Source of the DNA: Nocardioides panacisoli
GTDB lineage: Bacteria > Actinomycetota > Actinomycetes > Propionibacteriales > Nocardioidaceae
Length of the DNA stretch: 64,000 nt
Assembly: GCF_019448235.1 (NCBI RefSeq)
Contig: NZ_CP080409.1
Span: 744,001-808,000 of the forward strand
Direction: 5' to 3'
Position numbers and translations under genes: made by a program. A model generated the notes under the pieces. The model was not told the origin of the DNA and ran no database searches. It saw nothing but the letters and a program-made list of their open reading frames with translations. Below are positions 29,609 to 48,365 of the stretch, piece by piece (the first letter of the stretch is position 1; each line of letters starts with the position of its first letter).

Positions 29609-29654
29609 TCACCCGCGCAGGGTGAGGGCGCCGGGGGGCGGGGCTCCCTATGTT
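29609..29654 (+). promoter_or_regulatory. Island box a and promoter of the sulfatase operon
   Basis: TCACCC at 29609-29614 and GGGTGA at 29620-29625 form a perfect palindrome with a 5-base centre. TATGTT, a good -10, begins 23 bases after the box (29649-29654). The sulfatase ATG lies 39 bases further on. Confidence 0.65.
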
Positions 29655-29693
29655 CGACGTGGAGCTTGATCACCCACGCGAGAAGGGCCAGCC

Positions 29694-31193
29694 ATGTCGG
29701 ACATGCCGAACATCCTGATCATCTGGGGCGACGACATCGGGATCAGCAACCTCAGCTGCTACAGCGAGGGGATGATGGGCTACCGGACGCCCAACATCGA
29801 CCGGATCGCCGACGAGGGAGTGCGGTTCACCGACTACTACGGCGAGCAGAGCTGCACCGCGGGCCGCGCCGCCTTCATCACCGGACAGAACCCCTACCGC
29901 ACCGGCCTCACCAAGGTCGGCATGCCGGGAGCCGACATCGGCCTGCGGGCCGAGGACCCCACCATCGCGACCGCGCTGAAGAACCTCGGTTACGCCACCG
30001 GCCAGTTCGGCAAGAACCACTTCGGCGACCGCGACGAGTTCCTGCCCACCATGCACGGGTTCGACGAGTTCTTCGGCAACCTCTACCACCTCAACGCCGA
30101 GGAGGAGCCCGAGCTCGACGACTACCCCTCGGAGGAGGACTTTCCCGACTTCCGCAAGAACTTCGGGCCACGCGGCGTGATCCACTCCTGGGCCAACGGA
30201 GACGGCACCCACCGGATCGAGGACACCGGCCCGCTCACCAAGGAGCGGATGAAGACCATCGACGACGAGGTGCTGCCCGAGGCGCTGCGCTTCATGGGTG
30301 AGGCGCGGGACGCGGACACCCCGTTCTTCCTGTGGCTGAACACCACCCACATGCACTTCCGGACCCACGCCAAGGACAGCAGCCGGGGGAAGGCCGGGCG
30401 GTGGCAGTCGGAGTACCACGACACGATGTGCGACCACGACGAGCTCGTGGGGGAGGTGCTCGACTGGCTCGACGACCAGGGCCTCGCGGAGGACACGATC
30501 GTCATGTACTCCACCGACAACGGCCCACACATGAACACCTGGCCCGATGCGGGCATGACGCCGTTCCGCAACGAGAAGAACTCCAACTGGGAGGGTGCCT
30601 ACCGCGTGCCGGCGCTGGTCCGGTGGCCGAGCCGGTTCCCCGCCGGCGCGGTGCGCAACGGCATCGTCAGCCACAACGACTGGTTCGTCACCCTGCTCGC
30701 CGCCGCCGGCGACGCCGACGTCGCGGACCGGCTCAAGCAGGGCACCGACCTGGCCGGCTCGACCTACCGGGTGCACCTGGACGGTCACGACCAGCTCGAC
30801 TACATCACCGGGACGGTCGCGGCGAGCCCCCGGCAACACTTCTTCTACTGCTCCGACGACGGCGACCTGACGGCGCTCCGGTTCGACAACTGGAAGATCG
30901 TCTTCATGGAGCAACGCGCCACCGGCACGCTGAACGTGTGGGCCGAGCCCTACACCGAGCTGCGCGTGCCCAAGATCTTCAACCTCCGCACCGATCCCTT
31001 CGAGCGCGCCGACATCACCTCCAACACCTATTACGACTGGCTCCTGGACCACGCCTGGGTCCTGGTTCCCTCACAGACCTACGTCGCGCGGATGCTGCAG
31101 ACGCTGCAGGACTTCCCACCGCGCCAGGAGTCGGCGAGCTTCACCGTGGGCAAGGTCATGGAGAAGATGCGTGCCGGAATCTCGAGCGCCTGA
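29694..31193 (+). CDS. Arylsulfatase (formylglycine-dependent sulfatase)
   Basis: A 499-residue sulfatase of the alkaline-phosphatase superfamily. The N-terminal NILIIWGDDIG provides the two metal-binding Asp residues. SCTAGRAAFITGQNPYRTGL contains the CxAGR sequence whose Cys (about residue 57) is converted to formylglycine, the catalytic aldehyde hydrate. NTTHMHFRTH and STDNGPHMNTWPDAG complete the metal and substrate site. There is no signal peptide, so it is cytosolic and would act on an imported sulfate ester. It heads an operon with its own maturase (overlap 23 bases) and a HAD phosphatase, under an island box. Confidence 0.93.
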   Translation: MSDMPNILIIWGDDIGISNLSCYSEGMMGYRTPNIDRIADEGVRFTDYYGEQSCTAGRAAFITGQNPYRTGLTKVGMPGADIGLRAEDPTIATALKNLGYATGQFGKNHFGDRDEFLPTMHGFDEFFGNLYHLNAEEEPELDDYPSEEDFPDFRKNFGPRGVIHSWANGDGTHRIEDTGPLTKERMKTIDDEVLPEALRFMGEARDADTPFFLWLNTTHMHFRTHAKDSSRGKAGRWQSEYHDTMCDHDELVGEVLDWLDDQGLAEDTIVMYSTDNGPHMNTWPDAGMTPFRNEKNSNWEGAYRVPALVRWPSRFPAGAVRNGIVSHNDWFVTLLAAAGDADVADRLKQGTDLAGSTYRVHLDGHDQLDYITGTVAASPRQHFFYCSDDGDLTALRFDNWKIVFMEQRATGTLNVWAEPYTELRVPKIFNLRTDPFERADITSNTYYDWLLDHAWVLVPSQTYVARMLQTLQDFPPRQESASFTVGKVMEKMRAGISSA

Positions 31194-32139
31194 GCGGGGC
31201 CGCGAGCTCGTCGCCCTGCCCGGCGGCGCGTTCCGGATGGGCTCTGACGACCACTACCCGGAGGAGGCGCCGACCCACCCGGTGCGGGTCGGTGCCTTCT
31301 CGATCAGTCCGACACCGGTGACCAACGCCGAGTTCGCGCGCTTCGTACGGGCGACCGGCTACGTGACCGTCGCCGAGCGACCGCTCGACCCAGCCGGCTT
31401 CCCCGGTGCCCCACCGGCGAACCTGGTCCCCGGCTCGATGGTCTTCACGCCCACCGACGGTCCGGTCGACCTGCGCCACCTCAGCCAGTGGTGGACGTGG
31501 ACGCCGGGGGCGCACTGGCACGCGCCGTACGGTCCGGGGAGCTCGGTCAAGCGGATCCCCGACCATCCGGTCGTCCAGGTGTGCCACGAGGACGCGCGCG
31601 CGTACGCCGACTGGGCCGGACTCGACCTGCCGAGCGAGGCCGAGTGGGAGTACGCCGCTCGCGGCGGCCTCGACGGCGCCCCCTACACCTGGGGTCACGA
31701 GAAGCGCCCCGACGGCCGGATCATGGCCAACACCTGGGACGGCCCCGACTTCCCTTGGCGACACTCGAGGGAGAGCGGCCACCTCCGCACGGCGCCGGTC
31801 GGCAGTTTTCCCGCCAACGGATTCGGGCTCTTCGACATGGCCGGCAACGTCTGGGAGTGGACCGAGGACTGGTGGACCAGCCGCCACCCCGAGGCCGCGG
31901 AGACGGCCTGCTGCGCACCGGTCGACCCGCGCGGGGGAGATCTCGAGGGCAGCCTCGACCCCCGGCAGCCGCAGTTCCGGACCGGCCGCAAGGTGATCAA
32001 GGGGGGCTCCCACCTGTGCGCCGACAGCTACTGCCTGCGCTACCGCCCGGCCGCCCGGCGGCCACAGATGGTCGACACCGGCATGAGTCACGTCGGCTTC
32101 CGGTGCGTCCGGCGGGACCCGGGGAGCGACGATGGGTGA
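31171..32139 (+). CDS. Formylglycine-generating enzyme family protein
   Basis: A 322-residue SUMF1/FGE-type protein that should oxidise the sulfatase Cys to formylglycine. It starts ELVALPGGAFRMGSDDHYPEEAPTHPV (family entry motif), has LPSEAEWEYAARGG near residue 150 and NVWEWTEDWW near 225. The active-site pair HLCADSYC, two Cys four residues apart as in copper-dependent FGE, is at about residues 286-291. The GTG at 31171 lies inside the sulfatase gene (23-base overlap) behind GGAGAAG, so substrate and maturase are translationally coupled. The downstream HAD gene overlaps by 8 bases. Confidence 0.93.
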   Translation: MPESRAPERGRELVALPGGAFRMGSDDHYPEEAPTHPVRVGAFSISPTPVTNAEFARFVRATGYVTVAERPLDPAGFPGAPPANLVPGSMVFTPTDGPVDLRHLSQWWTWTPGAHWHAPYGPGSSVKRIPDHPVVQVCHEDARAYADWAGLDLPSEAEWEYAARGGLDGAPYTWGHEKRPDGRIMANTWDGPDFPWRHSRESGHLRTAPVGSFPANGFGLFDMAGNVWEWTEDWWTSRHPEAAETACCAPVDPRGGDLEGSLDPRQPQFRTGRKVIKGGSHLCADSYCLRYRPAARRPQMVDTGMSHVGFRCVRRDPGSDDG

Positions 32140-33046
32140 CCCGCTTCCCTCGTGGCGTCCCGGCGCGGTGCGCGAGTCCGTGGTCGCGTTCCTCGACGCG
32201 GTCACCGACGTACCGGTGGCGGACCGCCTCGCCTGCTTCGACAACGACGGGACGCTGTGGTGCGAGCGGCCGACCTACGTGCAGTTCGACTACCTGATCG
32301 ACCTGCTCCGGGCCGCGGACCGTGCGGACGCGACGATCCAGGACCGGCCGGAGTACGCCGCGGTCCTCGACGGCGACCCCGAGGCGATCGGCGACCTCGG
32401 GCTGGTGAGGGTGGCGCTCGCGCTCACCGAGCTCTGCGAGGGCTGGACCCCGGAGGAGTTCACCGCCAGCGTGGGTGCCTTCATGGCGCGTGCCCCGCAT
32501 CCGACCCTCGGCCGCCGGCATCGCTGGGCGGTCTACCAGCCGATGCTGGAGCTGCTCGACGCCCTCCGCGCTCGCGACGTCACGGTGAGCATCGTCAGCG
32601 GCGGTGGCACGGAGTTCGTGCGGGCCGTCAGTGACGACCTCTACGGCGTACCGCCCGAACTCGTGGTCGGGACGATGATTGCCTACGACTACGACCGCGA
32701 TGCGGGCGGACGACCACGCCTGCGCCGTACGGCGGAGGTCGACAAGGGCCCCAACGAGGGGGCGGCGAAGGTGAGTGCCATCCAGTCCCAGCTCGGGCGG
32801 CGACCCCGGTTGGCTGCGGGCAACTCCGGGGGCGATCGCGAGATGCTCGAGTGGGCAGCCGGTCAGGACGGGCCGTCCCTGGCGCTCCTGGTCGACCACG
32901 ACGACGCCGACCGTGAGGTCGCCTACACCAGCGTGGCCCAGAGCTTCGCCGAGGCGGAGCCGATCACCGAGGTGGGCTCCGCACTGGGGTGGACCGTGGT
33001 GAGCATGGCGCGGGACTGGGCTCAGGTGTTCCCGGAGGCTCGCTGA
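32132..33046 (+). CDS. HAD-superfamily hydrolase (phosphoserine-phosphatase-like)
   Basis: A 304-residue haloacid-dehalogenase-type phosphohydrolase. Motif I is ACFDNDGTLW (nucleophile Asp near residue 36), motif II VSIVSGGG (near 155), motif III the Lys of EVDKGPNEG, and motif IV AAGNSGGDREMLEWA. An all-alpha cap lies between motifs I and II. Similar proteins are often encoded beside sulfatases and their maturases, but the substrate is unknown. The ATG at 32132 overlaps the FGE gene by 8 bases behind GGGGAG. Its last 25 bases overlap the convergent symporter-like gene. Confidence 0.85.
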   Translation: MGDPLPSWRPGAVRESVVAFLDAVTDVPVADRLACFDNDGTLWCERPTYVQFDYLIDLLRAADRADATIQDRPEYAAVLDGDPEAIGDLGLVRVALALTELCEGWTPEEFTASVGAFMARAPHPTLGRRHRWAVYQPMLELLDALRARDVTVSIVSGGGTEFVRAVSDDLYGVPPELVVGTMIAYDYDRDAGGRPRLRRTAEVDKGPNEGAAKVSAIQSQLGRRPRLAAGNSGGDREMLEWAAGQDGPSLALLVDHDDADREVAYTSVAQSFAEAEPITEVGSALGWTVVSMARDWAQVFPEAR

Positions 33047-33915
33047 GCAGGGTTCCCCGGCGCGTCCGGGGTGTCCCCGCTGCGCCGGCCGAGCTCGGCG
33101 GCGAAGAGCAGGAGCACCACGGGCATCGCCACGGCGGCGGCCAGGGTCCGGACCACGACGTCGGGGGAGAGGCTGCTCGCGATCACGATGGCGGCAGCGA
33201 TGTTGCGCTGGGCCGCGGCGAGCTCGAGGACCCGCCGCTCGCTGCCCGGACGTCCGAGGCCCGACAGCGTGCCGGCCGCGAGGCCGGCCAGTATCAGGAA
33301 GGCGACGCCGAGGAGCACCCACGTGCCCGCCACGCCGAGGAGGTCGCGCCAGCCGGCGAGCAGAGCGGCTGCCAGGCCGAGGACGAGGCCGGTCGTCGAG
33401 AGCCGCTGGACTCCCGGGGCCCACCGGCCGGCATGGTGGGGGTGACGGGCGTGGACCAGCAGCCCGATCGCGAGCGGCAGGATCATCAGCCAGACCAGGG
33501 ATCCGGCGATCTCACCGGGTGCGACCGCGGCCTCGGGGACCAGCCACGGTACGACCACGGGGGCGTAGGCCACGGTCACCACCATCAGCAGCACCATGCT
33601 GCCGACCGCGGTGGCGGCGTCGCCGCCGGCCAGTTTGGCCAGTGGTGCCAGGAACGGGGCACCGGCAACGCAGGCGACGAGCAGCAGGGACGTCCGGGAG
33701 GCCTCGTCGACCGGCAGCGCCGTGACGATCAGCACGCCGGTGGCGGGGACCACGACGAAGTTGGCCACCAGCAGGCCGAGGACGAGGCGGACGTCGCGCA
33801 GCGGGCGCGCGACGGCACCGAAAGTGAGGGAGAGCCCCGTCCCGAGCATGCTGGCGACGACGAAGACCAGCATGCCGACGCGGGCGAGGGGGATGAGGAC
33901 CTCGGCTGCTTCCAT
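33022..33915 (-). CDS. Bile acid:sodium symporter (BASS)-like membrane protein
   Basis: A 297-residue protein with nine to ten hydrophobic segments that resembles the SBF/BASS family: an N-terminal VASMLGTGLSLTFGAVARPLRDVRLVLGLLVANFVVVP followed by CVAGAPFLAPLAKLAGGD, and the late RRVLELAAAQRNIAAAIVIAS segment, all match the two-fold repeat pattern. The substrate, probably an organic anion, is unknown. I use the ATG at 33915; 6 bases upstream is TGGACT, and an island box lies 22 bases beyond that. The 3' end overlaps the convergent HAD gene. Confidence 0.8.
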   Translation of the reverse strand: MEAAEVLIPLARVGMLVFVVASMLGTGLSLTFGAVARPLRDVRLVLGLLVANFVVVPATGVLIVTALPVDEASRTSLLLVACVAGAPFLAPLAKLAGGDAATAVGSMVLLMVVTVAYAPVVVPWLVPEAAVAPGEIAGSLVWLMILPLAIGLLVHARHPHHAGRWAPGVQRLSTTGLVLGLAAALLAGWRDLLGVAGTWVLLGVAFLILAGLAAGTLSGLGRPGSERRVLELAAAQRNIAAAIVIASSLSPDVVVRTLAAAVAMPVVLLLFAAELGRRSGDTPDAPGNPAQRASGNT

Positions 33916-33949: not shown

Positions 33950-33966
33950 TCACCCCGGCAGGATGA
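33950..33966. promoter_or_regulatory. Island box b1 (symporter-like gene side)
   Basis: TCACCC at 33950-33955 and GGATGA at 33961-33966, 5 bases apart. Read on the minus strand it sits 22 bases before TGGACT (33922-33927), which is 6 bases from the symporter ATG. Confidence 0.6.
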
Positions 33967-34011
33967 TCACCCGCAGCGGGGGAGGCGGTGCGGTGGCCCC
34001 GCGGTGAGGGT
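33967..34011 (+). promoter_or_regulatory. Island box b2 and promoter of the first SulP gene
   Basis: A second, slightly degenerate box, TCACCC at 33967-33972 and GGGGGA at 33978-33983, directly abuts box b1. GAGGGT at 34006-34011 begins 22 bases after it as a -10-like hexamer for the SulP gene. Confidence 0.5.
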
Positions 34012-34046: not shown

Positions 34047-35750
34047 GTGCCGAGGGTGAGTTCCGAGCAGGACGCGGGTGGGCTGACGCGTCGACCCGCC
34101 CGGAACCCGAGCACGTTCCTGCCGATCCTGGGGTGGGCGCCGCGCTACCGCGTGGGGAGGGACCTGCGGCCGGACCTCGTCGCGGGCATCGCACTCGCCG
34201 CACTGCTGATCCCCGAGTCCATCGGCTACGCCGGCATCGCAGGGGTTCCGCCGGAGGTCGGCCTGTACGCCGCGATCGCCGCGGTTGCGGTGTACGCGCT
34301 CACCGGCGGCACGTCGATCCTCGTCGTGGGGCCGGCGTCCGCGGTCGCGGCGCTGAGCGCCTCGTTGGTCGCGGAGCTCGCCTCCGACGGAGCCGACCCC
34401 GTCGCCCTCACAGCTGCGCTCGCCGTGTCCTCGGGGCTGCTGCTGCTCCTCGCGGGACTGCTGCGGCTCGGGTGGATCGTCAACTTCATCTCCCGACCGG
34501 TGCTGCACGCCTTCGTCGCGGGTCTGTCGCTCTCGATCATCATCGGCCAGCTCGACGACCTGCTCGGGGTGGAGATCGACGCCGAGAGCGCTGTCGTGCG
34601 AGCCGGGCAGGTGGTGGCACGTGTCGGACAGTGGGATCCGGCCACCGTGGTCCTCGGCGTACTCGCCCTGGGGCTGCTCGTCGGTCTCGAGCGCTGGGCG
34701 GCCCGCGTGCCCGGAGCCTTGGTCGTGGTCGTCGGAGCCATTGCGGCGGTGTGGGCGTTCGGGCTCGACGACGGCACGATCGCGGTGCTCGGCTCGATCC
34801 CGCAGGGTCTGCCGGCCCCGGCACTCCCCGGCATCGACGTCCGGACCTGGCTCGAGGTCACGGTGGCGGGGGCGGCGCTGGTCCTGGTGGGCTTCTCGGA
34901 GGGCTACGCGGCGGCGAGCGCGGTGTCGGACAGCACCGGCGAGAAGGTCGACGGCGACCAGGAGCTCGTGGGCGCCGGCGCCGCGAACGTCGCGGCCGGG
35001 CTGTTCGGCGGGCAGGCCGTGTCGGGCAGCCTCACCAAGTCGGCGGCCTCGCAGGCCGCCGGGGCCCGCACCCAGGTCGCCAACCTGTCAGCGGGAGCGA
35101 TCCTGGTGCTCACCCTGGTGGTGCTCGCCCCGGTGTTCGAGCTGTTGCCGGAGGCCGTCGTGTCGGCCGTGGTCATCGCCGCGGTGCTGCCCGCGGCCAA
35201 GCCGTCCCGAGTGCTCGACCTGTGGTCGGTCAACCGGTTGGACTTCGCCGCGGGGCTCACCACCTACGTCCTCGTGCTGGTGTGGGAGACGCTGCCCGCG
35301 ATGATCGTGGGCGTCGCGCTCTCCCTCGTGTTCCTCGTGCGGCGCGCCAGCTTCCCTGACGTCGTCGAGGTCCGGCGGAGCGAGGACGGGACCTTCCGTG
35401 AGGTGGAGGACGACGCACCTGCGTTGACCCACCCCGACGTCGCCGTCGTCCGATTCGAGGCGTCACTGGTCTACGCCAACGCCGACCGGCTCGTCCGTGC
35501 CGTCGACACGCTGCTCGAGGAGCGCTCCCTGCTCCGACGGGTGGTCCTGGACGCCGAGATGATCGCGGACCTGGACTCGACCGGTGCCGAGGCGCTGCTC
35601 GCCCTCGACGGCCGCCTGGCCGAGCGCGGGGTCGAGCTGCGGCTAGCGAGGATCCACCGCCGGGCGCGCGGGCAGTTGGAGCGCTCCGGCCTCGCCGCCC
35701 GGTTCGAGGGGCGCATCCATCCGCACGTGGTCGCTGCGACCCTGGACTGA
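34047..35750 (+). CDS. SulP family anion permease with STAS domain (1)
   Basis: A 567-residue member of the SLC26/SulP family. About twelve hydrophobic segments over residues 45-435 include the signature LAALLIPESIGYAGIAGVPPEVGLYAAI and the GQAVSGSLTKSAASQAAGARTQVANLSAG loop. The cytosolic STAS domain (about 460-567) has VVLDAEMIADLDSTGAEALLAL at the conserved nucleotide-binding strand. Substrate could be sulfate, bicarbonate or another anion. Two GTG codons (34047, 34056) compete as starts; GGAGG at 34040 is too near the first and rather far from the second. It converges, with a 5-base gap, on a second SulP gene. Confidence 0.88.
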   Translation: MPRVSSEQDAGGLTRRPARNPSTFLPILGWAPRYRVGRDLRPDLVAGIALAALLIPESIGYAGIAGVPPEVGLYAAIAAVAVYALTGGTSILVVGPASAVAALSASLVAELASDGADPVALTAALAVSSGLLLLLAGLLRLGWIVNFISRPVLHAFVAGLSLSIIIGQLDDLLGVEIDAESAVVRAGQVVARVGQWDPATVVLGVLALGLLVGLERWAARVPGALVVVVGAIAAVWAFGLDDGTIAVLGSIPQGLPAPALPGIDVRTWLEVTVAGAALVLVGFSEGYAAASAVSDSTGEKVDGDQELVGAGAANVAAGLFGGQAVSGSLTKSAASQAAGARTQVANLSAGAILVLTLVVLAPVFELLPEAVVSAVVIAAVLPAAKPSRVLDLWSVNRLDFAAGLTTYVLVLVWETLPAMIVGVALSLVFLVRRASFPDVVEVRRSEDGTFREVEDDAPALTHPDVAVVRFEASLVYANADRLVRAVDTLLEERSLLRRVVLDAEMIADLDSTGAEALLALDGRLAERGVELRLARIHRRARGQLERSGLAARFEGRIHPHVVAATLD

Positions 35751-35755
35751 CCGGA

Positions 35756-37432
35756 TCACTCCTGCCGGCCCTGGTCCTCCATCGCGTCGCTCCAGGCCCG
35801 TCGCACCGTCTCGCCCAGCCATTCGGTGCCGAGGTAGACGTTGTGCTCGCCGAGTTGGTCGACCAGGCCCTCACCGCGCAGCTGGCGCAGCACCTGCTCG
35901 TTGCCGAGCACCAGCTTGAGCGCACCGCCACGCGAGGCGAGGGAGGAGCCGTAGCGGCTCAGCACGTCGAGCAGGGTCAGTCCGAGTTGGTCGACGCCGC
36001 GCAACCGCAGGACGACCACGGCACGCTCACTGCCGGCCGTGACCGCGGGTAGCTGCGCCTCCAGGACCGGAGCGCTGGCGAAGAACAGGCTGCCGTAGGG
36101 CTGTAGCACGACGACCGAGTCCGCGGCGAGCACCCCTGGCGGATCGGCCTCCCGGAAGCGGCCGTCGGTGCGGAGGTCGATGGCACGCAGCGCGACCCGG
36201 TTGGACTGGTTGGCCACGTGGAGCACGATCGCCAACCCGACCCCGGTCACGACGGCGAACTGGAGCGGAACGACGAGGGTCAGGGTGAAGGTGACCGCCA
36301 GCACGCTGACCTGCAACGGTCCGGTGCGGACGACGGAGAGGAGCGCGGCCGGCTTGACTGTCCGGATCCCGACCACGATGAGCAGCGCCGCCAGTGACGG
36401 CATGGCAATGCGTCCGACCACGTCGGCGAGGAGCAGGATGACCACCGCCATCGTGATCCCGGCGATGAACAGGGAGAGCCGGCTGCGCGCCCCGGCCGAG
36501 TGCACCAGCGCCGAGGCCGACATGGAGCCTCCCACGGGCATTCCCTGGAAGACGCCGGAGAGGACGTTGCCGGCGCCCTGGCCGATGAAGTCGCGCGAGG
36601 TGTCGGACCGTCGTCCGTCGGGGTTGGGGATGCCGGCGGACACGGCTGCCCCCTGCACCAGCCCGACGAAGGCGAGCGACAGGGCCGGAAGCAGCAGGAC
36701 GACCACGTCGCCCAGGACCGGCAGGCGGGGCGCCGGGAGCGCGCCCGGCAGGTCGGCCAGGTCGGCCACGAGGCGTACGTCGAGCTGCAGCGCCTCGGGG
36801 AGGATCGACCCGGCCGCCACGGCGACGACCAGTCCGAGCGAACCGATGCGGGTGCGTCCCAGCGCGATGATCAGCACGACCGTGAGCGTGCCGACGGCCA
36901 CCGACCACGGGTCGGCGCGCCACGGATGCAGCACCAGGTCGAGCGCGCGCAGCACGCGGTTGGCGGCGTCGGACTCGTAGCCACTGAAGTTCGACAGCTG
37001 CCCGAGGACGATGTTGACGCCCACGGCGCTCACGAAGCCCGTCATCACCGCAGTCGGCACGAACCGGAGCATCCGACCTCCCCGCAGCAGGCCGAACGCC
37101 ACCATGACGCCCCCGGTCAGCACCGCGAGCGTGAAGAGCGCCCGCTCGGGGTCGGGACGTGAGGCGAGGTCGGTGTCGGCGACGACGAGTGACATCGCTC
37201 CGGTCGCCTGCACGGCCATGAACGTGCTGCTGGTGAAGGCGGCGGCCCCCACCATCCCGAAGAGGTACCCGTAGAGACCGGCGACCGGGTTCACCCCGGC
37301 CAGGACCCCACTGGCCAGCCCGTCGGGCACGCTCTCCACGCCCAGCACGATCCCGGCGGTGGCGTCCGGGCGCAGCTCCGCCATCGACGGCCGACGGCCG
37401 GGTCGCCAACGGCGACGAGAACGGTCGGGCAC
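35756..37432 (-). CDS. SulP family anion permease with STAS domain (2)
   Basis: A second SulP transporter, about 558 residues, clearly paralogous in fold but not a recent duplicate of the neighbour. Membrane segments begin at LRPDATAGIVLGVESVPDGLASGVLAGVNPVAGLYGYL and continue to about residue 440; a STAS-like domain ends the protein (AVVVLRLRGVDQLGLTLLDVLSRYG). The conserved VGGSMSASALVHSAGARSRLS loop is present. The GTG at 37432 lies 7 bases after the stop of the holin-like gene; an ATG at 37384 is an alternative start. It is probably co-transcribed with the holin-like gene from the island box at 37836. Confidence 0.85.
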   Translation of the reverse strand: MPDRSRRRWRPGRRPSMAELRPDATAGIVLGVESVPDGLASGVLAGVNPVAGLYGYLFGMVGAAAFTSSTFMAVQATGAMSLVVADTDLASRPDPERALFTLAVLTGGVMVAFGLLRGGRMLRFVPTAVMTGFVSAVGVNIVLGQLSNFSGYESDAANRVLRALDLVLHPWRADPWSVAVGTLTVVLIIALGRTRIGSLGLVVAVAAGSILPEALQLDVRLVADLADLPGALPAPRLPVLGDVVVLLLPALSLAFVGLVQGAAVSAGIPNPDGRRSDTSRDFIGQGAGNVLSGVFQGMPVGGSMSASALVHSAGARSRLSLFIAGITMAVVILLLADVVGRIAMPSLAALLIVVGIRTVKPAALLSVVRTGPLQVSVLAVTFTLTLVVPLQFAVVTGVGLAIVLHVANQSNRVALRAIDLRTDGRFREADPPGVLAADSVVVLQPYGSLFFASAPVLEAQLPAVTAGSERAVVVLRLRGVDQLGLTLLDVLSRYGSSLASRGGALKLVLGNEQVLRQLRGEGLVDQLGEHNVYLGTEWLGETVRRAWSDAMEDQGRQE

Positions 37433-37439
37433 GGTGGGA

Positions 37440-37807: not shown

Positions 37808-37852
37808 ATGGTTTCGGCGCCCGGGGTTCGGCGCGTCACCCGGGACGGATGA
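37808..37852 (-). promoter_or_regulatory. Island box c and promoter of the holin-like/SulP2 operon
   Basis: TCACCC at 37836-37841 and GGATGA at 37847-37852. On the minus strand AACCAT (37808-37813) begins 22 bases after the box. The same box lies about 95 bases before the divergent MalT-like regulator gene and could serve both. Confidence 0.6.
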
Positions 37853-41322: not shown

Positions 41323-42470
41323 CGGCTCCACGGGGCCGCACGCGCGACGGTGGCACCGACGCCCCCGACGACCACCAGCACCGCGAGCAGCAGCGGACCG
41401 GGGTCGGGGAGGACCAGCACGGCCAAGAGCGCCGACGCGGCGACGCCGACGCCGATCCAGCCGGACAGGGAGTGACCGGTGACAGCGGCCCAGCAGCGCC
41501 GCCAGGTGTCGGCCACCGCGCTCCGCAACCGACGTGCGCGGGTGCCGGAACCGGTCACCAGGGCCGTGCCGACCACCAGCGCCATCACCACGATCCCGAG
41601 CCGTGCCACGGTCCGCAACCGGGCGGCCACCACCTCCAGCACCGCCTCCCCGGCCGCCGAGGCGCCCGGTGGGAGTCCGCCGAGGACCTGCTCGCGGCCG
41701 ACCGACAGCCCGAGCACGAGCAGCAGCAGGACGGCCAGGGAGCCGCCGGCGAAACGGATCACCGCCCGCCGACGATCCCGCGCCAGCGCCACCCCGGCGA
41801 GGAGCAGGCCTGCGCACGCCCAGGGGAGGAGCAGGCCCCAGCGGCGCAGCACGTCGTAGCCGGTCTGCGCCTTCTCGAGTTGTTCGACCGATCCGATGGC
41901 GAAGGAGGCGTCCGCGACCTCGATCCGGTCGGCGCCGGGGACGCCGCCCTCGACCAGGCGCGCGCGAAGCGTCTCCAGCAGCGTCGACACCGGCACGCTG
42001 ACGGTCTGGTCGGCACCGAGCTCGACGAGGTCGCTGTCGTCCTCGAGCACCGCGACCAGCTCGGTGTGGGCCACCTCGTTCGCGGACGCCCACGAGTCGG
42101 CGAACGCCTCGCTGGCGACCAGGGAGTGGGCGGCCCGCGAGACGCGTTCGTCCAACCGCTCCCGGAGGGGCTCGGCGAGCAGGCTCAACACCCGGGCGAG
42201 CTCCGGAGGCACGCCGCGCGCTTCCAGTGCCTCGGCGGCCCGCGGCAGCGGGTCGACCCCGTCCAGGCCCTCCATGATCCGCTCGGTGAGGAGGTCGGCG
42301 ACCGCGGACCGGACCGCCGGCTCCTCGGCCAGGGGTGCCACCGTGGCGACGAAGTCGTCGGTCTCGGTGAGCGTGCTGCGCAGCCACCAGCCGGTGACCG
42401 ACAACGGCACCAGCACCACGGCCAGGACCAGGCAGGTGGCCGAGCAGGCAGCGCGCCAGTCGGGCCTCAC
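41319..42470 (-). CDS. Hypothetical membrane protein (383 aa)
   Basis: A 383-residue protein not assigned to a named family with confidence. One transmembrane segment near residues 11-30 (CLVLAVVLVPLSVTGWWL) is followed by a large extracytoplasmic helical domain of about 190 residues. Three or four further membrane segments fill the C-terminal half (LLLPWACAGLLLAGVAL, FAGGSLAVLLLLVLGLSV, LGIVVMALVVGTALV, and a hairpin near the end). The layout resembles other actinobacterial membrane proteins of unknown function. I start at the GTG at 42470, which follows TACCGT by 7 bases; an upstream ATG at 42566 would place an island box inside the gene. It leads an operon with the BrkB-like gene. Confidence 0.72.
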   Translation of the reverse strand: MRPDWRAACSATCLVLAVVLVPLSVTGWWLRSTLTETDDFVATVAPLAEEPAVRSAVADLLTERIMEGLDGVDPLPRAAEALEARGVPPELARVLSLLAEPLRERLDERVSRAAHSLVASEAFADSWASANEVAHTELVAVLEDDSDLVELGADQTVSVPVSTLLETLRARLVEGGVPGADRIEVADASFAIGSVEQLEKAQTGYDVLRRWGLLLPWACAGLLLAGVALARDRRRAVIRFAGGSLAVLLLLVLGLSVGREQVLGGLPPGASAAGEAVLEVVAARLRTVARLGIVVMALVVGTALVTGSGTRARRLRSAVADTWRRCWAAVTGHSLSGWIGVGVAASALLAVLVLPDPGPLLLAVLVVVGGVGATVARAAPWSR

Positions 42471-42477: not shown

Positions 42478-42550
42478 ACGGTAGGCAGTGGCGGTCGGCC
42501 TGCCTTCACCCGCGTCGGGTGAGGGCAGTCGGTCCGGCAGCCTCCAGTCT
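42478..42550. promoter_or_regulatory. Island box g with two divergent promoters
   Basis: A perfect palindrome, TCACCC at 42506-42511 and GGGTGA at 42517-42522. Exactly 22 bases to the left is TACCGT on the minus strand (42478-42483), 7 bases before the GTG at 42470. Exactly 22 bases to the right is CAGTCT (42545-42550), 6 bases before the GTG at 42557. Both messages would be leaderless. Confidence 0.75.
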
Positions 42551-42556: not shown

Positions 42557-43621
42557 GTGTCCTCACCCGCGGCCCCCACCCTGCCGACCCCGTCCGGGCT
42601 GCCGCGCGGAGTCCTGATCATGGTCGGCCTCGCCGCGATCACCGTGACGGTCGCCGGGGTGCGCGCGGTGTCGGACATTCTCGCGCCGGTGCTCCTGGCC
42701 GTGGTGCTCAGCATCGCGTCGGCACCCATCCGCTCGGGGCTGGCGGCACGGGGCGTCCCGCGGTGGGTGGGCACGGTGGTGTCGATCCTGGCCGTCTACG
42801 TCGTCCTGGTGCTGCTCACGGTGTCGCTGGTGGTGGCAGCCGCGCGCTTCGCGTCCCTCGTCCCGGAGTACCAGGACGAGCTCTCAGAGCTCCTGGCCGT
42901 GGTCACGTCGCGCCTGGCCGACCTCGGGGTCGGCAGCGCGCAGGCGCAGGCCGTCGTCGAGTCCTTCGACCTCGGGCGCCTCGCCGGTCTCGTCACCGGT
43001 GTCCTCGCGAGCCTGGCGTCACTGGCCACCGACCTCGCCTTCGTGGTGACCCTGGTGCTCTTCCTGAGCCTGGACGCGGGCGCCTTCGGTCGCCACCTCG
43101 CACAGGTGAGGACCAACCGACCGGCGATCGTCGAGGCGCTGGAGTCCTTCGCCAGCGGGACCCGCACCTACCTCCTGGTGTCGACCGGGTTCGGACTCGT
43201 CGTCGCCGTGATCGACACCGTGCTGCTCTACCTCCTCGGGATACCCGGTGCGCTGCTGTGGGGGCTCCTCGCGTTCATCACCAACTACATCCCCAACATC
43301 GGCTTCGTCCTCGGGCTGGTGCCGCCGGCGGTGCTGGCACTCCTCGAGGGCGGGCCGGGCCTGATGCTGGCCGTGATCGTGTCCTACTCGGTCGTCAACG
43401 TCGTCATCCAGTCGGTGATCCAACCCAAGATGGTGGGCGATGCCGTCGGGCTCTCCGCCAGCGTCACCTTCCTCTCCCTGGTCGTGTGGTCCTGGATCCT
43501 CGGCCCACTGGGGGCCGTGCTCGCCGTCCCGCTCTCCCTCCTGGTGCGCGCGGTCTTCGTCGACGTCGACCCCGCCACCAGGTGGATCGGCGGCCTGATC
43601 GGGTCGCGGCCCGGCGACTGA
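42557..43621 (+). CDS. AI-2E family transporter-like membrane protein
   Basis: A 354-residue protein of the AI-2E/UPF0118 family. Two N-terminal segments (VLIMVGLAAITVTVAGV and ILAPVLLAVVLSIAS) are followed by a helical domain, then VTLVLFLSLDAG and the family core LLGIPGALLWGLLAFITNYIPNIGFVLGLVPPAVLALLEGG, and ends with VIQPKMVGDAVGLSASVTFLSLVVWSWILGPLGAVLAVPL. Family members export small molecules or act as Na+/H+ antiporters; autoinducer export is not implied. It starts an operon with DUF389 and phospholipase D genes, controlled from box g. Confidence 0.87.
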   Translation: MSSPAAPTLPTPSGLPRGVLIMVGLAAITVTVAGVRAVSDILAPVLLAVVLSIASAPIRSGLAARGVPRWVGTVVSILAVYVVLVLLTVSLVVAAARFASLVPEYQDELSELLAVVTSRLADLGVGSAQAQAVVESFDLGRLAGLVTGVLASLASLATDLAFVVTLVLFLSLDAGAFGRHLAQVRTNRPAIVEALESFASGTRTYLLVSTGFGLVVAVIDTVLLYLLGIPGALLWGLLAFITNYIPNIGFVLGLVPPAVLALLEGGPGLMLAVIVSYSVVNVVIQSVIQPKMVGDAVGLSASVTFLSLVVWSWILGPLGAVLAVPLSLLVRAVFVDVDPATRWIGGLIGSRPGD

Positions 43622-43625: not shown

Positions 43626-44612
43626 ATGGACCTGGCGCTGCGGCTGGAGGCCGGCGACGTCGCTCGGATCACCGGGACGCTCTACGTCGGGTCGCGGGAC
43701 CCGCGCCGCGACCTGTCGGGGTTCTGGGTGCTGCTGGTGCTGGCCGCCGTCATCGCCGCGGCCGGCATCGTGGCCGACTCCACCGCCACTGTCATCGGCG
43801 CCATGATCGTGGCTCCGCTGATGCGTCCCATCCTGGGCGTAGCCTGCGCGATGGTGCTGGTCGACCGCAGGCAGTTGGTGCGCGCAGTCGTGCTGGTCCT
43901 GGGGGGAGCCGCGCTCGTGGTGTCAGTCGGGTTCACGATCGGCCTGCTCACCCAGGCCGACGTGGTGGCTGCGTCCAACGGCCAGGTGGCGGGGCGGGTG
44001 AGCCCGCGCCTGATCGACTTGGTGGCCGCACTCGCGACCGGCTTCGTCGGGGCGTTCGCGCTCATCCGGTCAGACGTCTCCGACAGCCTTCCCGGGGTTG
44101 CCATCGCGATCTCGCTGGTGCCGCCGCTGGCGGTGGTCGGCCTCACCCTGGAGTCGGGGGCAGGGGCGGAGTCGTTCGGCGCACTCCTGCTGTTCGGCAC
44201 CAACGTCGCCGCGATCATCGCGACCGGAACCCTGCTCCTCCTGGTCTCCGACATCCGTCGCGAGGTCGGTCGCGCCGGTCATCCCGTCGGCGAGCTGCGT
44301 GGCAGGACGCTGGCCGCCGTCGGGCTCTCGCTCGCCCTGGTCTCCGTGCCGTTGGGGGGCGGCAGCGTGCAGGTCGCGCGGGAGGAGTTCGCACTGCGGT
44401 CGGCCGAGCCCGTGGTCACCGCGTGGGCGGAGGACCGCGGATGGAGCGTCACCGACACCTCGGTGCGCGGTGACACCCTGCACGTCGAGGCGCTCGGCCC
44501 GCGTGCCGACCCCGGCCTGGCCGACCTGCGGTCCGCGTTGGACGACGCCGGCCTCGACGACCTCGCGCTGGAGCTGGAGTTCCTCCTCGGCGACACCCGG
44601 AGGGCCCCGTGA
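43626..44612 (+). CDS. DUF389 domain-containing membrane protein
   Basis: A 328-residue membrane protein of the DUF389 (TIGR00341-like) family. Five to six hydrophobic segments occupy residues 30-240, containing the hallmark VADSTATVIGAMIVAPLMRPILGVACAMV and SLPGVAIAISLVPPLAVVGLTLE plus LLLFGTNVAAIIATGTLLLLV. A soluble C-terminal domain of about 80 residues follows (VVTAWAEDRGWSVTDTSVRGD). The function is unknown. The ATG follows the AI-2E-like gene by 4 bases, and the next gene overlaps by GTGA, so all three are co-transcribed. Confidence 0.87.
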   Translation: MDLALRLEAGDVARITGTLYVGSRDPRRDLSGFWVLLVLAAVIAAAGIVADSTATVIGAMIVAPLMRPILGVACAMVLVDRRQLVRAVVLVLGGAALVVSVGFTIGLLTQADVVAASNGQVAGRVSPRLIDLVAALATGFVGAFALIRSDVSDSLPGVAIAISLVPPLAVVGLTLESGAGAESFGALLLFGTNVAAIIATGTLLLLVSDIRREVGRAGHPVGELRGRTLAAVGLSLALVSVPLGGGSVQVAREEFALRSAEPVVTAWAEDRGWSVTDTSVRGDTLHVEALGPRADPGLADLRSALDDAGLDDLALELEFLLGDTRRAP

Positions 44613-46078
44613 CCCTCGTCGTCGCTGCCCTCGGCGCCGGGCTGGTGGTGCTCAATCTGGTGCTGCGCCTGGTCGCACTCGGCGTCATCCCCGAGGGCCG
44701 CAAGCCCTCGTCCTCCGCGGCGTGGCTCGTCATGATCCTCGCCCTGCCGGTCGTGGGGTTCCTGCTCTTCTGGTTGCTCGGCCGCACCGACGTCGGTCGC
44801 GTACGTCGCGAGCGGCAGGCGGAGGCGCTGCGGCGGGTCCGGGAACGGGTGGGGGAGCTCGCCGACGCCGACCCGGGGGAGGCGCCGGCCTACCTGCCCT
44901 CCGTGCTTCACCTCAACCGGCGACTCGGGGCGTTCCCCGCGGTGCCGGCGGGGCCGGTCGTGCTCCACACCGACTACGACGAGTCGATTGCGGCCATGGC
45001 GGCGCTGGTCGACCGGGCGGAGCACCGCGTCCACGTGGAGTCCTACATCACCACGTGGGACGAGACCACCGAGCCGTTGTTCGACGCGATGGTCGCAGCG
45101 GCTGCGCGGGGGGTGACCGTGCGACTCCTGTTCGACCACCTCGGCTGCCGCAAGCTGCCGGGGCGCGAGGAGATGTGTCGGCGACTCGACGACGCCGGCG
45201 TCGCCTGGCGGGCGATGCTGCCACTGGGGTTGCGCGCGGGGAAGCTGCGTCGTCCCGACCTCCGCAACCACCGCAAGCTGCTGGTGGTCGACGGCACGTG
45301 GGCCGTGACGGGCTCGCAGAACCTGATCGAGCCGAGCTACCACAAGCCCCAGCACCAGCGAGCCGGCCGGCGATGGGTCGAACTCACGGCGACCGTCCAG
45401 GGGCCGCTCGCCCGGCTGCTCGACGGGGTGTTCGTCACCGACTGGTACACCGAGACCGGCGAACTGCTGGGGGAGGCCCCGACCGCCGGGAACACCGCGC
45501 CCGTGGACCATTCGGCCGCGTCGGACCCCGGCGTCGGTCAGGTCGTCCCCAGCGGTCCCGGGGTGGTGGCCGAGAACAACCTGCGGCTCTTCACCGCACT
45601 GGTCTACGGCGCGACCCGCCGGGTATCCCTGACCAGCCCCTACTTCGTGCCCGACGAGTCGCTGCTCTACGCCGTCACCACCGCCGCCCACCGCGGGGTC
45701 GAGATCGAGCTGTTCGTGGGGGAGGAGGGGGACCAGTTGATGGTCCACAAGGCGCAGTGCTCCTACTACCGAGCGCTGCTGGAGGCGGGAGTCCGGATCT
45801 GGCTCTACGAGCCACCGCTGGTGCTGCACGCCAAGCACCTCTCCATCGATGACGACGTGGTGGTCCTCGGGTCGAGCAACATGGACCTGCGGTCGTTCGC
45901 GCTGAACTACGAGGTGTCCACCCTGCTGACGGGGACCGATGTCGTGGTCGCGATGCGTGCGGTCGAGGACGGCTACCGCGCCCGGTCCCGGGAGCTCCTG
46001 CTCGAGGAGTGGGAACGACGACCCCGCCGCACCCGGTTCGGCGAGAACGTCTTCCGGTTGACCTCGGCCCTGCAGTGA
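44609..46078 (+). CDS. Phospholipase D-family cardiolipin synthase
   Basis: A 489-residue enzyme with two N-terminal transmembrane segments (residues 1-25 and 37-60) and two PLD catalytic domains. The HKD motifs are HRKLLVVDGTWAVTGSQN near residue 224 and HAKHLSIDDDVVVLGSSNMD near residue 410. This is the ClsA-type layout, which condenses phosphatidylglycerol (or CDP-diacylglycerol) into cardiolipin on the inner membrane face. The sequence PYFVPDESLL, typical of Cls, precedes the second domain. A GTG start overlaps DUF389 by 4 bases. Membrane-lipid remodelling fits the envelope theme of the island. Confidence 0.9.
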   Translation: MTLVVAALGAGLVVLNLVLRLVALGVIPEGRKPSSSAAWLVMILALPVVGFLLFWLLGRTDVGRVRRERQAEALRRVRERVGELADADPGEAPAYLPSVLHLNRRLGAFPAVPAGPVVLHTDYDESIAAMAALVDRAEHRVHVESYITTWDETTEPLFDAMVAAAARGVTVRLLFDHLGCRKLPGREEMCRRLDDAGVAWRAMLPLGLRAGKLRRPDLRNHRKLLVVDGTWAVTGSQNLIEPSYHKPQHQRAGRRWVELTATVQGPLARLLDGVFVTDWYTETGELLGEAPTAGNTAPVDHSAASDPGVGQVVPSGPGVVAENNLRLFTALVYGATRRVSLTSPYFVPDESLLYAVTTAAHRGVEIELFVGEEGDQLMVHKAQCSYYRALLEAGVRIWLYEPPLVLHAKHLSIDDDVVVLGSSNMDLRSFALNYEVSTLLTGTDVVVAMRAVEDGYRARSRELLLEEWERRPRRTRFGENVFRLTSALQ

Positions 46079-46085: not shown

Positions 46086-46130
46086 TCACCCGGCACGGAT
46101 GACGCGAGGTGACGCACGTCGCCGGACAGT
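46086..46130 (+). promoter_or_regulatory. Island box d and promoter
   Basis: TCACCC at 46086-46091 and GGATGA at 46097-46102. GACAGT (46125-46130) begins 22 bases after the box and 26 bases before the ATG at 46157. Confidence 0.6.
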
Positions 46131-46156: not shown

Positions 46157-46393
46157 ATGGTCGCACCGGTCGGCGCCCCGGCCCCGAGGACGTGGCGCTA
46201 TGAGTTCCTGCTCGGGGTGCGCGTATCGGACACGGTGCGGGCGGCGTTCCCCGAGCTGACCGCGACCACCGGTGCCGCCGGGGGCACGGTGTTCTTCGGT
46301 GAGGTCGAGGACGACGCCCACCTGCACGGAATCCTCGCGCGGTTCCAGACCCTGGGCCTGTCGGTGCTCGAGATGCGCCGGCTCCCCGACTGA
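46157..46393 (+). CDS. Small hypothetical protein (78 aa)
   Basis: A 78-residue soluble protein of unknown family. The pattern YEFLLGVRVSDTVRAAFPEL, then TTGAAGGTVFFGEVEDDAHLHGILARFQTLGLSVLEMRRL, alternates strand, helix, strand, helix, strand in a ferredoxin-like or ACT-like layout, suggesting a small ligand-binding or partner-binding protein. The ATG has GAGGAGG 5 bases upstream, and an island box and -10 lie further up, so I consider it a genuine gene of the regulon. Confidence 0.65.
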   Translation: MVAPVGAPAPRTWRYEFLLGVRVSDTVRAAFPELTATTGAAGGTVFFGEVEDDAHLHGILARFQTLGLSVLEMRRLPD

Positions 46394-46405: not shown

Positions 46406-46451
46406 TCACCCGGCACGGGCGAGGCCGGCGGGCGGTCGCCACGCGGAGAAT
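46406..46451 (+). promoter_or_regulatory. Island box e and promoter of the HdeD-like operon
   Basis: TCACCC at 46406-46411 and GGGCGA at 46417-46422 (one mismatch to the right arm). GAGAAT at 46446-46451 begins 23 bases later; the ATG of the HdeD-like gene is at 46498. Confidence 0.6.
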
Positions 46452-46497
46452 CGGGCACGGCACCGAGACACCCGTCCCGACCCGTGGAGGAGTCCCC

Positions 46498-47055
46498 ATG
46501 ACCGACGCCGTTGCTGCCACCGGCCCCACCTGGGAGGCACGCCGGACCAAGGGCGACCTGGTCCTGGGAGGCCTGCTGGTCCTGGCCGCGATCGTCCTGC
46601 TCCTGCACGTCGTGGTGGCCACGGCGGTGTCGGTCCTCTTCCTCGGGTGGGCGATGCTCCTCAGCGGTGTGATGGCACTCGTGGTGAGCGTCATCGGCGT
46701 CGGCAGGGACGGCTTCTGGACGGGGCTGCTCGCCGGCGGCCTGCTGACCGTCCTCGGACTGGTCATGGTGCGCAACCCCGGCCTCGCCGCGGTGAGCCTC
46801 ACCCTGATCGCCGGCACCACCTTCCTCGTCTCCGGCGTGGTCCGGTTGGTCGCGGCGTTCCAGGAGGAGGCGGGACGTGCCGCGCTGCTCCTGGGCGGAG
46901 GCGTCTCGACACTGCTGGGACTGATGGTGCTGTTCAACCTCTTCTCCGCCAGCTTCACCGTGCTCGGAGTGATCCTCGGTATCCAGGTCCTGGCCGAGGG
47001 ACTGTCGCTGATGATCGCGGGGCGCATCAGGACCATCGCCCCGGCCGCCACCTGA
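46498..47055 (+). CDS. HdeD family (DUF308) acid-stress membrane protein
   Basis: A 185-residue protein with six transmembrane segments in three helical pairs, from LVLGGLLVLAAIVLLLHVVVATAVSVLFLGWAMLLSGVMALVV to VLGVILGIQVLAEGLSLMIAG, matching the HdeD/DUF308 repeat. In Escherichia coli HdeD helps acid resistance at high cell density; here the role is inferred. The ATG has GGAGGAG upstream. It is followed 17 bases later by the DUF1269 gene and is the first gene of a four-gene operon under box e. Confidence 0.85.
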   Translation: MTDAVAATGPTWEARRTKGDLVLGGLLVLAAIVLLLHVVVATAVSVLFLGWAMLLSGVMALVVSVIGVGRDGFWTGLLAGGLLTVLGLVMVRNPGLAAVSLTLIAGTTFLVSGVVRLVAAFQEEAGRAALLLGGGVSTLLGLMVLFNLFSASFTVLGVILGIQVLAEGLSLMIAGRIRTIAPAAT

Positions 47056-47072
47056 CCCCGAGAGGAACCGCC

Positions 47073-47564
47073 ATGGCCACCCTGACCGTCTGGAAGTTCA
47101 GCAATGCCGATGGAGCCGAGGAGGCAGTCCGGACGCTGTCGTCCCTGACCAGCCAGGAGCTGATCAACGTCCACGACGCCGCGACGGCCTCGTGGCCCGA
47201 GGGCAAGAAGAAGCCGAAGACCAGGCAGGCCAACGACCTGACGTCCTCGGGCGCTTTCGGCGGGGCCTTCTGGGGCCTGCTGTTCGGCATGATCTTCTTC
47301 GTGCCCCTGCTGGGGGCGGCCGTCGGTGCCGCCACGGGAGCGCTCTCCGGTGCCCTGTCGGACGCGGGCATCGACGACGGCTTCATCAACCGGGTGCGGG
47401 ACCAGCTGACCGAGGGCACCTCGGCGCTGTTCCTGCTGTCCAGCGACGCGGTGGTCGACCGGGTCAAGGACGCGTTCGCCGGCTCCGACATGGAGTTGAT
47501 CAGCACCAACCTCTCGGCGGAGGAGGAAGCCGCACTGCGGGCTGCCTTCGCCGAGGAGGAGTGA
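47073..47564 (+). CDS. DUF1269 domain-containing protein
   Basis: A 163-residue membrane-associated protein of the DUF1269 family. A cytosolic alpha/beta start (LTVWKFSNADGAEEAVRTLSSL) is followed by a conserved Gly-rich membrane hairpin, SSGAFGGAFWGLLFGMIFFVPLLGAAVGAATGALSGALSD, at about residues 58-97. A soluble end contains EGTSALFLLSSDAVVDRVKDAF. The function is unknown; the Gly-zipper resembles those of membrane-disturbing or stress proteins. RBS GAGAGG lies before the ATG. It sits in an operon with HdeD-like, DUF6325-like and SHOCT genes. Confidence 0.85.
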   Translation: MATLTVWKFSNADGAEEAVRTLSSLTSQELINVHDAATASWPEGKKKPKTRQANDLTSSGAFGGAFWGLLFGMIFFVPLLGAAVGAATGALSGALSDAGIDDGFINRVRDQLTEGTSALFLLSSDAVVDRVKDAFAGSDMELISTNLSAEEEAALRAAFAEEE

Positions 47565-47574
47565 GGCCGCGACC

Positions 47575-48006
47575 ATGAGCCGCGGTCCGATCGAGGTGCT
47601 GCTGCTCGCCTTCCCCGCGGACGTTCCGGCGGGAGACCTGCTGGAACACCTCCGTGGGCCCGTCGCGGCGGCCCAGCTGCGGGTGGTGGACCTCGTGCTG
47701 GTGGGGGTCGAGGAGGCGGGCAACCGCACCTTCCGCGACCTCGAGGACGGCAACCCGGGCGAACTCGCCGCCGGTCTCGACCTCGATCCCCACACGCTGC
47801 TCAACGAGGACGACGTCGAGTCCTTGGCGAGTGCCCTGGGACCGGAGCAACAGGGTGCGGTGGTCGTGGTCGAACACCTCTGGGCGACCGGCCTCGCCGA
47901 GGGGCTGCGCGGCCTCGGGGCCGAGCTGGCGCTGCACGTCCGGGTGACGCCGGAGGAGGCGGAGGCGGCGTTCGCCGCGACTGGGGCCTGGGGGAGACCG
48001 GCATGA
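47575..48006 (+). CDS. DUF6325-like small protein
   Basis: A 143-residue soluble protein that resembles the DUF6325 family commonly found with DUF1269 and SHOCT genes in actinobacteria. It opens GPIEVLLLAFPADVPAGDLLEHLRGPVAAAQLRVVDLVLVGVEEAG, then has an acidic middle (LNEDDVESLASALGPEQQGAVVVVEHLWATGLAEGL) and ends in a helical segment. The repeated beta-alpha-beta pattern suggests a dimeric partner-binding domain. Function unknown. It overlaps the SHOCT gene by 4 bases (ATGA). Confidence 0.72.
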   Translation: MSRGPIEVLLLAFPADVPAGDLLEHLRGPVAAAQLRVVDLVLVGVEEAGNRTFRDLEDGNPGELAAGLDLDPHTLLNEDDVESLASALGPEQQGAVVVVEHLWATGLAEGLRGLGAELALHVRVTPEEAEAAFAATGAWGRPA

Positions 48007-48296
48007 TGCGCAGGATGGGACGACCGGGACTGCTCGGCACGATGGCGCGCACCGCCGTGATCGCGGGCACCGCCAACGCGACGACCAACGCCATGAATCG
48101 CCGGGCGGCGACACGGCAGCAGGCCTCCGCCCCGGCGTACCCGCAGGCGTCCCCTGCTGCGGAGCCGGCGGCCGCGGACGGTGGGGAGTCCCCGGCGGGT
48201 CTGGTGGACCAGATCCAGCGCCTGGCCGTCCTGCACGAGCAGGGGGCGCTCTCCGACGCCGAGTTCGCCGAGGCCAAGGCGCGTCTCCTCGGGTGA
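48003..48296 (+). CDS. SHOCT domain protein
   Basis: A 97-residue protein. The N-terminus is basic with a short hydrophobic, Ala/Thr-rich stretch (LLGTMARTAVIAGTANATTNAMNRR), then a Pro/Ala-rich linker. The C-terminal 30 residues form the SHOCT (short C-terminal) motif, LVDQIQRLAVLHEQGALSDAEFAEAKARLLG, a two-helix element thought to mediate oligomerisation. Fourth gene of the HdeD-like operon, start overlapping the previous stop. Confidence 0.85.
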   Translation: MMRRMGRPGLLGTMARTAVIAGTANATTNAMNRRAATRQQASAPAYPQASPAAEPAAADGGESPAGLVDQIQRLAVLHEQGALSDAEFAEAKARLLG

Positions 48297-48320
48297 GGTG
48301 GCCGGCCCGGGCGCCGTGGC

Positions 48321-48365
48321 TCACCCACTACGGGTGGGTCGCGAGCACCGGTGAGGCCACAGTCT
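48321..48365 (+). promoter_or_regulatory. Island box f and promoter of the YggT-like gene
   Basis: TCACCC at 48321-48326 and GGGTGG at 48332-48337. CAGTCT (48360-48365) begins exactly 22 bases after the box, the same hexamer and spacing as in box g, and the ATG follows 7 bases later (leaderless). Confidence 0.65.

Follow-up and report, generated by a model that had tools for sequence, protein, structure and literature searches.

What reads the palindrome TCACCC-N5-GGRTGA that recurs between the genes of a single 19-kb block in Nocardioides panacisoli, and what does it do there? The window analysed here is a 64-kb stretch, bases 744001–808000 of the single 3.57-Mb contig, and the boxes span positions 29609–48337 of it, taking in about 18 genes. 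A first-pass annotation had listed eight intergenic copies, read them as marking the promoters of one regulon and known of no named regulator for them. We propose that the palindrome is very probably the operator of an activator of the MalT type, one of the large ATP-binding regulators of the LuxR family (LAL), and most likely of the one encoded in the block at 37971–40505. The proposal is built from sequence features, namely the sites, their spacing from a −10 element, a matching shift of ATG codons, the MalT-like architecture and helix of the LAL protein and a statistical pairing of helix type and box.

The box and its promoter architecture

At no more than one mismatch the palindrome occurs at eight positions in the window, all in the block and none in the remainder of the 64 kb. 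The strand matches number 16, where 100 dinucleotide-shuffled versions had 0.83 on average and never more than 5. The exact pattern is found five times in the whole 3.57-Mb genome, always within the block, and the repeated palindrome of the first-pass annotation is confirmed at every listed position. All eight boxes are intergenic, given the start codons placed in this analysis, and among their half-sites GGGTGA is commoner than GGATGA. Elsewhere in the genome there are 20 sites with one mismatch, 17 of which lie under a called open reading frame (ORF), an approximate figure as ORFs were called on short stretches. Only two of the 20, both under ORFs, carry the −10 signature defined below, as opposed to seven of the eight block boxes (Fisher p = 2e-4), so that the comparison of coding and non-coding DNA which the annotation had proposed turns out in its favour.

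The minimal −10 element was taken as N-A-N-N-N-T lying 22–23 bases past the box, with A at +24 or +25 and T at +28 or +29. The first box (29609–29625, plus strand, exact) is followed by TATGTT at 29649–29654 and would drive 29694–33046 on the plus strand. Two boxes then stand in tandem: 33950–33966, which is exact, has TGGACT on its minus side, where the second position is not A, and 33967–33983, which has one mismatch, precedes GAGGGT on the plus strand and would drive the SulP gene at 34047. The exact box at 37836–37852 has AACCAT on its minus side and no −10 on the side of the LAL gene, while 42506–42522, exact and symmetric, has divergent elements, CAGTCT on the plus and TACCGT on the minus strand. 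The last three boxes all point along the plus strand, with GACAGT after 46086–46102 (exact), GAGAAT after 46406–46422 (one mismatch) and CAGTCT after 48321–48337 (one mismatch). The signature is thus present in 8 of 10 gene-facing directions, or 8 of 12 if the tandem boxes at 33950 and 33967 are each paired with both neighbours; at about 0.037 per direction, the chance of at least 8 in 10 is p = 1.5e-10. The exceptions are the minus side of 33950 and the side of 37836 facing the LAL gene. The annotation's claim of a −10-like hexamer at this distance therefore stands for eight directions, and TGGACT, which it had included, drops out for lack of the A.

The same arrangement recurs in a set of 184 distinct exact TCAYCC-N5-GGRTGA boxes, drawn from the window and the fetched loci and giving 368 outward directions. 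An A-N3-T signature is found in 178 of these, compared with about 4% elsewhere; the A is at +24 in 106 and at +25 in 72, compared with some 7 per offset elsewhere. Of the boxes, 155 show the signature on one or both sides, 23 of them on both. We take its A and T for positions −11 and −7 of a −10 element whose remaining positions are weakly conserved, and a TTGACA-like bias at +1 to +6, the would-be −35 end, was not found across the 184 boxes. ATG codons track the element, peaking at +35/+36 when the A is at +24 (19/106) and at +36/+37 when it is at +25 (15/72). As the codon shifts with the −10, a fraction of the messages may begin at or beside the start codon, that is, without a leader. The two positions together predict a transcription start about +35 to +37 from the box; with a start at +35 the box centre would fall near −43, in keeping with the −42 first suggested. 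Start codons close behind several −10 elements, another point of the annotation, are likewise borne out, the leaderless candidates in the window being ATG 33915 (+35), GTG 42470 (+36), GTG 42557 (+35) and ATG 48373 (+36).

A MalT-like regulator in the block and its known relatives

The product of 37971–40505 (plus strand, 844 residues) has an N-terminal signal transduction ATPase with numerous domains (STAND) related to that of MalT, a central superhelical domain resembling MalT domain III and, at residues about 763–844, a C-terminal GerE/LuxR helix-turn-helix (PF00196, E = 1.5e-12) with 28/78 identities to the MalT C-terminus. Because it scores 154.4 bits against the MalT equivalog NF003420, for which the curated cut-off is 537, we class it by sequence as a MalT-like LAL and not as MalT itself. 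The NCBIfam matches of the block proteins tested all fall under their cut-offs, and the remaining structure-linked matches of the LAL are to superhelical or STAND proteins and give no information on function. Searches of the family genomes for LAL proteins scored the best two or the best four candidates per genome; with four scored, a full-length search found 24 of 198 genomes with a match at E <= 1e-20. Autoregulation of the LAL gene was considered for this block and rejected, as no −10 signature faces it, though seven promoter directions elsewhere do face a LAL gene.

To our knowledge none of the DosR, CRP, HspR or LuxR-type boxes fits the half-site. The statement that no named regulator is known for the palindrome does not find support. 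According to the sections consulted of Droste et al. (2020), TCATCC-N5-GGATGA marks 17 transcription starts within a stretch of 51 genes in Actinoplanes sp. SE50/110 that is activated by a MalT-like LAL (MalT, ACSP50_3915), transcription begins 34.4 ± 1.0 bases past the motif and similar regions exist in Micromonosporaceae (PMC7567727). In the same sections the boxed genes go down on deletion of malT and up on its overexpression, and one of a pair of LAL proteins is the main activator (PMC7567727). That motif is our palindrome with T/A instead of C/G at one position per half. Palindrome half length and spacer are equal, and here too TCAYCC-N5-GGRTGA stands ahead of many genes in one large block, with a MalT-like LAL inside it whose recognition helix is nearly identical to that of the Actinoplanes protein. 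As far as those sections allow the comparison, both blocks are without maltose genes, gene order is shuffled between species, and the boxed class II glutamine amidotransferase and amino acid permease also occur in relatives fetched here. The differences are that GGGTGA predominates here, that the genes are mainly those for a sulfatase and its maturase, SulP and SBF transporters and membrane proteins, and that the LAL gene is not itself boxed. On sequence grounds we class the block among the MalT-type activator regulons already described, from which it differs in its GGGTGA site variant and its gene content.

Other LAL systems resemble it less completely. MalT of Escherichia coli and Klebsiella shares the protein architecture, the recognition helix and a site near −35, and has the core GGATGA for the GGRTGA found here; the part of the literature consulted reports its boxes, GGA[TG]GA, as direct repeats (PMC6099782), in contrast to the inverted halves and 5-base spacer of the block. 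Upstream of malP two of the MalT hexamers share a strand and a third lies on the opposite one. The block targets are unrelated to the maltose genes of that regulon: none was found among the block proteins scanned, and there is no exact box elsewhere in the genome. SCO6993, a LAL of Streptomyces coelicolor, also binds short palindromes, but the consulted part of its description gives its sites as lacking mutual homology or a consensus and the protein as a repressor (PMC9628970). TpdR of Rhodococcus jostii TMP1 is described, again in the part consulted, as a LAL activator whose promoter has repeats that overlap the −35 or lie immediately before it, but these are 15-base direct and 7-base inverted repeats of other sequence, and they serve a catabolic operon (PMC6099782). 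In the literature searched, which covered few subscription journals, no paper was found on the GGGTGA form, its spread or its link with a helix type.

How might such a regulator work here? We infer binding, activation, dimer formation and a dependence on ATP and inducer: with inducer and ATP bound, the LAL would form a dimer on the inverted GGRTGA halves, covering roughly −35 to −51, and would bring RNA polymerase to promoters in which a −35 consensus is absent and the −10 is pared down to A(−11) and T(−7). Transcription would start some 35 bases past the box, for several genes directly on the start codon, and the regulon would be this block, with about eight or nine transcripts and roughly 17 genes.

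Helix type, box and the competing explanations

If a LAL reads the box, then box and recognition helix should vary together, and this was looked at in 80 LAL loci of the order, each of at most 20 kb and picked by protein similarity. They hold 33 exact boxes, the mean for 30 control palindromes (permutations differing at 4 or more of 6 positions) being 0.17 and the maximum 2; at up to one mismatch there are 86, while the controls average 9.1 and reach 37 at most. In an earlier set of seven control palindromes GRGTGA had equalled the real box (16 exact, 57 at up to one mismatch), because the half GGGTGA is common to both, and TGRGGA had reached 38 at up to one mismatch. When helices are classed by the residue following the helix histidine, exact boxes occur at 12 of 17 loci of the form NT.[KR][TAS]H[VLIM], 3 of 60 of the form ..HT and none of 3 others. 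Since this rule had been seen in its own data, a prediction was written and LAL loci from outside the family were then fetched, 20 of the 60 planned. All 20 are of the H[VLI] type, and 18 have exact boxes, 69 in total (control mean 0.1, maximum 1).

Several side observations belong to these loci. The G007 locus, which departs from the helix rule in having boxes near an HT-type LAL, has two box pairs about 2.5 kb apart (L083:16405-19024) in which the second box is identical (TCACCTTCGCCGGATGA). A series of loci from outside the order (L264–L279, family f23) is densely boxed; its half-sites are nearly all GGGTGA, and its LAL helix is of the KTHLKAIYRKF type. Tandem LAL gene pairs stand beside boxes in three genomes (G056, L074:4409-9308; G088, L079/L080; G134, L081:5816-10812), one partner having a MalT-like helix and the other a divergent one (..SRNTxNSEIASIYRKLG.. 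in L074 and L081), which recalls ACSP50_3915/3917 of Actinoplanes. GGA half-sites make up 20/36 near ..ILRK.. LALs (8 loci) and 16/204 near others (34 loci), an exploratory count confounded with clade. The idea that lysine or arginine in the helix causes GGG or GGA was dropped because L280 combines a lysine with GGA-rich boxes.

A number of results weigh against our assignment. At two mismatches the palindrome occurs in the window at chance level (16 found, 15.3 expected), neither side of 29 of the 184 boxes has a −10 signature, and GTG codons are scattered in that set without the clean shift of ATG. The helix split was counted on the very 80 loci in which it had been noticed; it is weaker at up to one mismatch (15/17 versus 14/60), and after thinning to LALs below 50% identity it comes to 7/8 for H[VLIM] and 0/3 for HT, the 60 HT loci being a few close clusters. 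The outside set weighs less than its 20 loci, since a single family (f23), whose helices are almost the same, supplies 17 of them, and no HT locus is included; in the strict T-H form of the helix, which L264 (KSHL) and L281 (KAHL) do not fit, exact boxes are found at 17 of 18. Some HT-type LALs do have exact boxes (two at L189, one each at L191 and L194, several at L083), and H[VLI]-type loci without one number 5 of 17 in the first set and 2 of 20 (L264, L277) in the second. Of the 80 sulfatase orthologues described below, 61 lack a box in the 400 bases upstream, among them every mycobacterial, Agromyces and cyanobacterial one in the set, and a LAL gene lies in the compared stretch at only three of the 19 boxed loci (L108, L127 and L136, the last a partial 218-residue match). 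Binding by the Actinoplanes MalT is itself assumed in the sections consulted (PMC7567727).

These points can be set against other explanations. It is unlikely, though the most serious of the alternatives, that another GerE-domain regulator encoded elsewhere reads the boxes and that the block LAL is a passenger or co-regulator. The genome may encode further GerE proteins (45 candidates in one search, with two scored; 22 in another, with four scored and one at E <= 1e-20), the LAL gene is not itself behind a box-driven promoter, and the genomes with tandem pairs have two LAL genes beside their boxes. Against this, box and MalT-like helix type go together at loci picked for protein similarity, a Pfam scan of the block proteins reveals no second regulator, and in Actinoplanes a single LAL of the pair is the main activator in the account consulted (PMC7567727). 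We give still less weight to repression, in which the box at −35 to −51 would be an operator blocking polymerase. A palindrome abutting the −35 position would suit such a role, for which SCO6993 offers a reported precedent in the part consulted (PMC9628970), but in 178 of 368 directions a very weak −10 stands at a fixed 22–23 bases from the box, as expected of an activator that replaces the −35, and the consulted effects of malT deletion and overexpression in Actinoplanes point to activation (PMC7567727).

We find it scarcely credible that the palindromes lack a regulatory role and are terminators, dispersed repeats or chance matches. GC-rich palindromes may form hairpins, and the two-mismatch count is what chance would give; yet every exact site in the genome falls within this one block, either ahead of a gene or separating a divergent pair, the −10 is position-locked to the box with ATG codons tracking it, and the flanks of the eight sites, judged by eye, are mutually unrelated. 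Operator function for a MalT-type activator remains the explanation that we prefer.

Gene content, spread and meaning of the regulon

The genes behind the boxes and the LAL gene together come to 18, and the view of one regulon of about that size is supported. Past the first box lie, on the plus strand and named by Pfam, a Cys-type sulfatase (PF00884, C54-T-A-G-R; 29694–31193), an FGE-like sulfatase-modifying factor (PF03781; 31171–32139) and a HAD-family hydrolase (PF12710; 32132–33046). An SBF-type transporter (33022–33915, minus) starts at the leaderless candidate ATG 33915 of the box at 33950, and two SulP permeases with STAS domains follow, one past the box at 33967 (34047–35750, plus) and one on the minus strand (35756–37534, approximate start). 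The latter stands behind a 115-residue protein with four transmembrane segments (PF04020; 37440–37787, minus), the first minus-side gene past the box at 37836. Beyond the LAL gene come a BrkB/YihY-type membrane protein (PF03631; 40474–41319, minus, approximate start) and a 383-residue protein without a Pfam match (41319–42470, minus), which begins at the candidate GTG 42470 and has relatives behind boxes elsewhere. The divergent side of the box at 42506 leads, on the plus strand, into an AI-2E-family transporter (42557–43621, from GTG 42557), a DUF389 protein (43626–44612) and a PLD-type, cardiolipin-synthase-like protein (44609–46078), the last two named by Pfam.

The remaining genes are all on the plus strand. 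A 78-residue protein without a Pfam match (46157–46393), whose relatives stand behind boxes in other genomes, follows the box at 46086, and an HdeD-like DUF308 membrane protein (46498–47055) the one at 46406. A DUF6325 protein (47575–48006) has no box of its own here, though its family is the commonest directly past boxes elsewhere; a SHOCT-domain protein named by Pfam (48003–48296) comes next, and a 161-residue protein without a Pfam match (48373–48858) starts at ATG 48373. A 160-residue ORF without a Pfam match lies on the minus strand at 47030–47509, in the gap between the HdeD-like and DUF6325 genes, and bears on the reach of the box at 46406 to the DUF6325–SHOCT pair. An ABC transporter gene begins 88 bases past the last boxed gene and is followed by aconitase (48947–53753); neither has its own box, and read-through from the box at 48321 is possible. 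From gene content, our best guess at the role of the block, loosely held, is envelope or ion stress with anion and sulfate handling.

Beyond this genome, 108 of the 198 family genomes have at least one exact match and up to 14 forward matches, the reversed control pattern giving 0 to 2. The sulfatase is 68–89% identical to proteins of actinobacteria, cyanobacteria, Chloroflexi and a Desulfomonile metagenome-assembled genome (MAG), which suggests horizontal spread. In 80 named orthologues within that identity range, the box was sought at up to one mismatch within 400 bases upstream and was found in 19, where 30 control palindromes averaged 0.5 loci (maximum 7). Counted back from the start of the match, the box begins 84 to 113 bases upstream at 18 of these loci and 168 bases upstream at L096, and 13 of the 19 show a forward −10 signature. 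Boxed sulfatases occur in Nocardioides, Aeromicrobium, Terracoccus, Terrabacter, Promicromonospora, Occultella, Microbacterium and an Ilumatobacter MAG. The expectation of the first-pass annotation that relatives would keep the box thus holds for Nocardioides and Aeromicrobium, with six of seven loci in the set boxed, and fails for most of the wider set.

A downstream gene could be assigned to 150 of the 178 promoter directions, with groups named from one representative each or from matches to window proteins. The targets fall into clusters of DUF6325 (23), SulP (14), sulfatase-related (13), DUF7144 (12), relatives of the 78-residue protein (11), SHOCT (7), LAL itself (7), the 383-residue family (5), SfLAP (5), glutamine amidotransferase (5), AI-2E (4), DUF6069 (4) and smaller groups. 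A wider reading, about which we are evenly divided and if anything slightly doubtful, is that widespread and largely unrecognised MalT-type activators of actinobacteria control a portable promoter cassette, consisting of TCAYCC-N5-GGRTGA, 22–23 bases, N-A-N-N-N-T and often a leaderless start codon. One and the same pool of genes for membrane proteins, anion transport and small uncharacterized proteins would then be recombined behind it from lineage to lineage, and whether a half-site has A or G as its third base would depend on the helix type of the local LAL.

LAL regulators are numerous in actinobacteria, and few have a known site. They have been called poorly studied, in the part of that source consulted (PMC3282765). 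As the site, the −10 spacing and the apparent helix type of the reader can here be stated from sequence, the regulons of many LALs may be listed by a simple scan and then tested. The recurrent families DUF6325, DUF7144 and DUF6069 and those of the 78- and 383-residue proteins would gain a common candidate regulator, and a shared role for them becomes testable.

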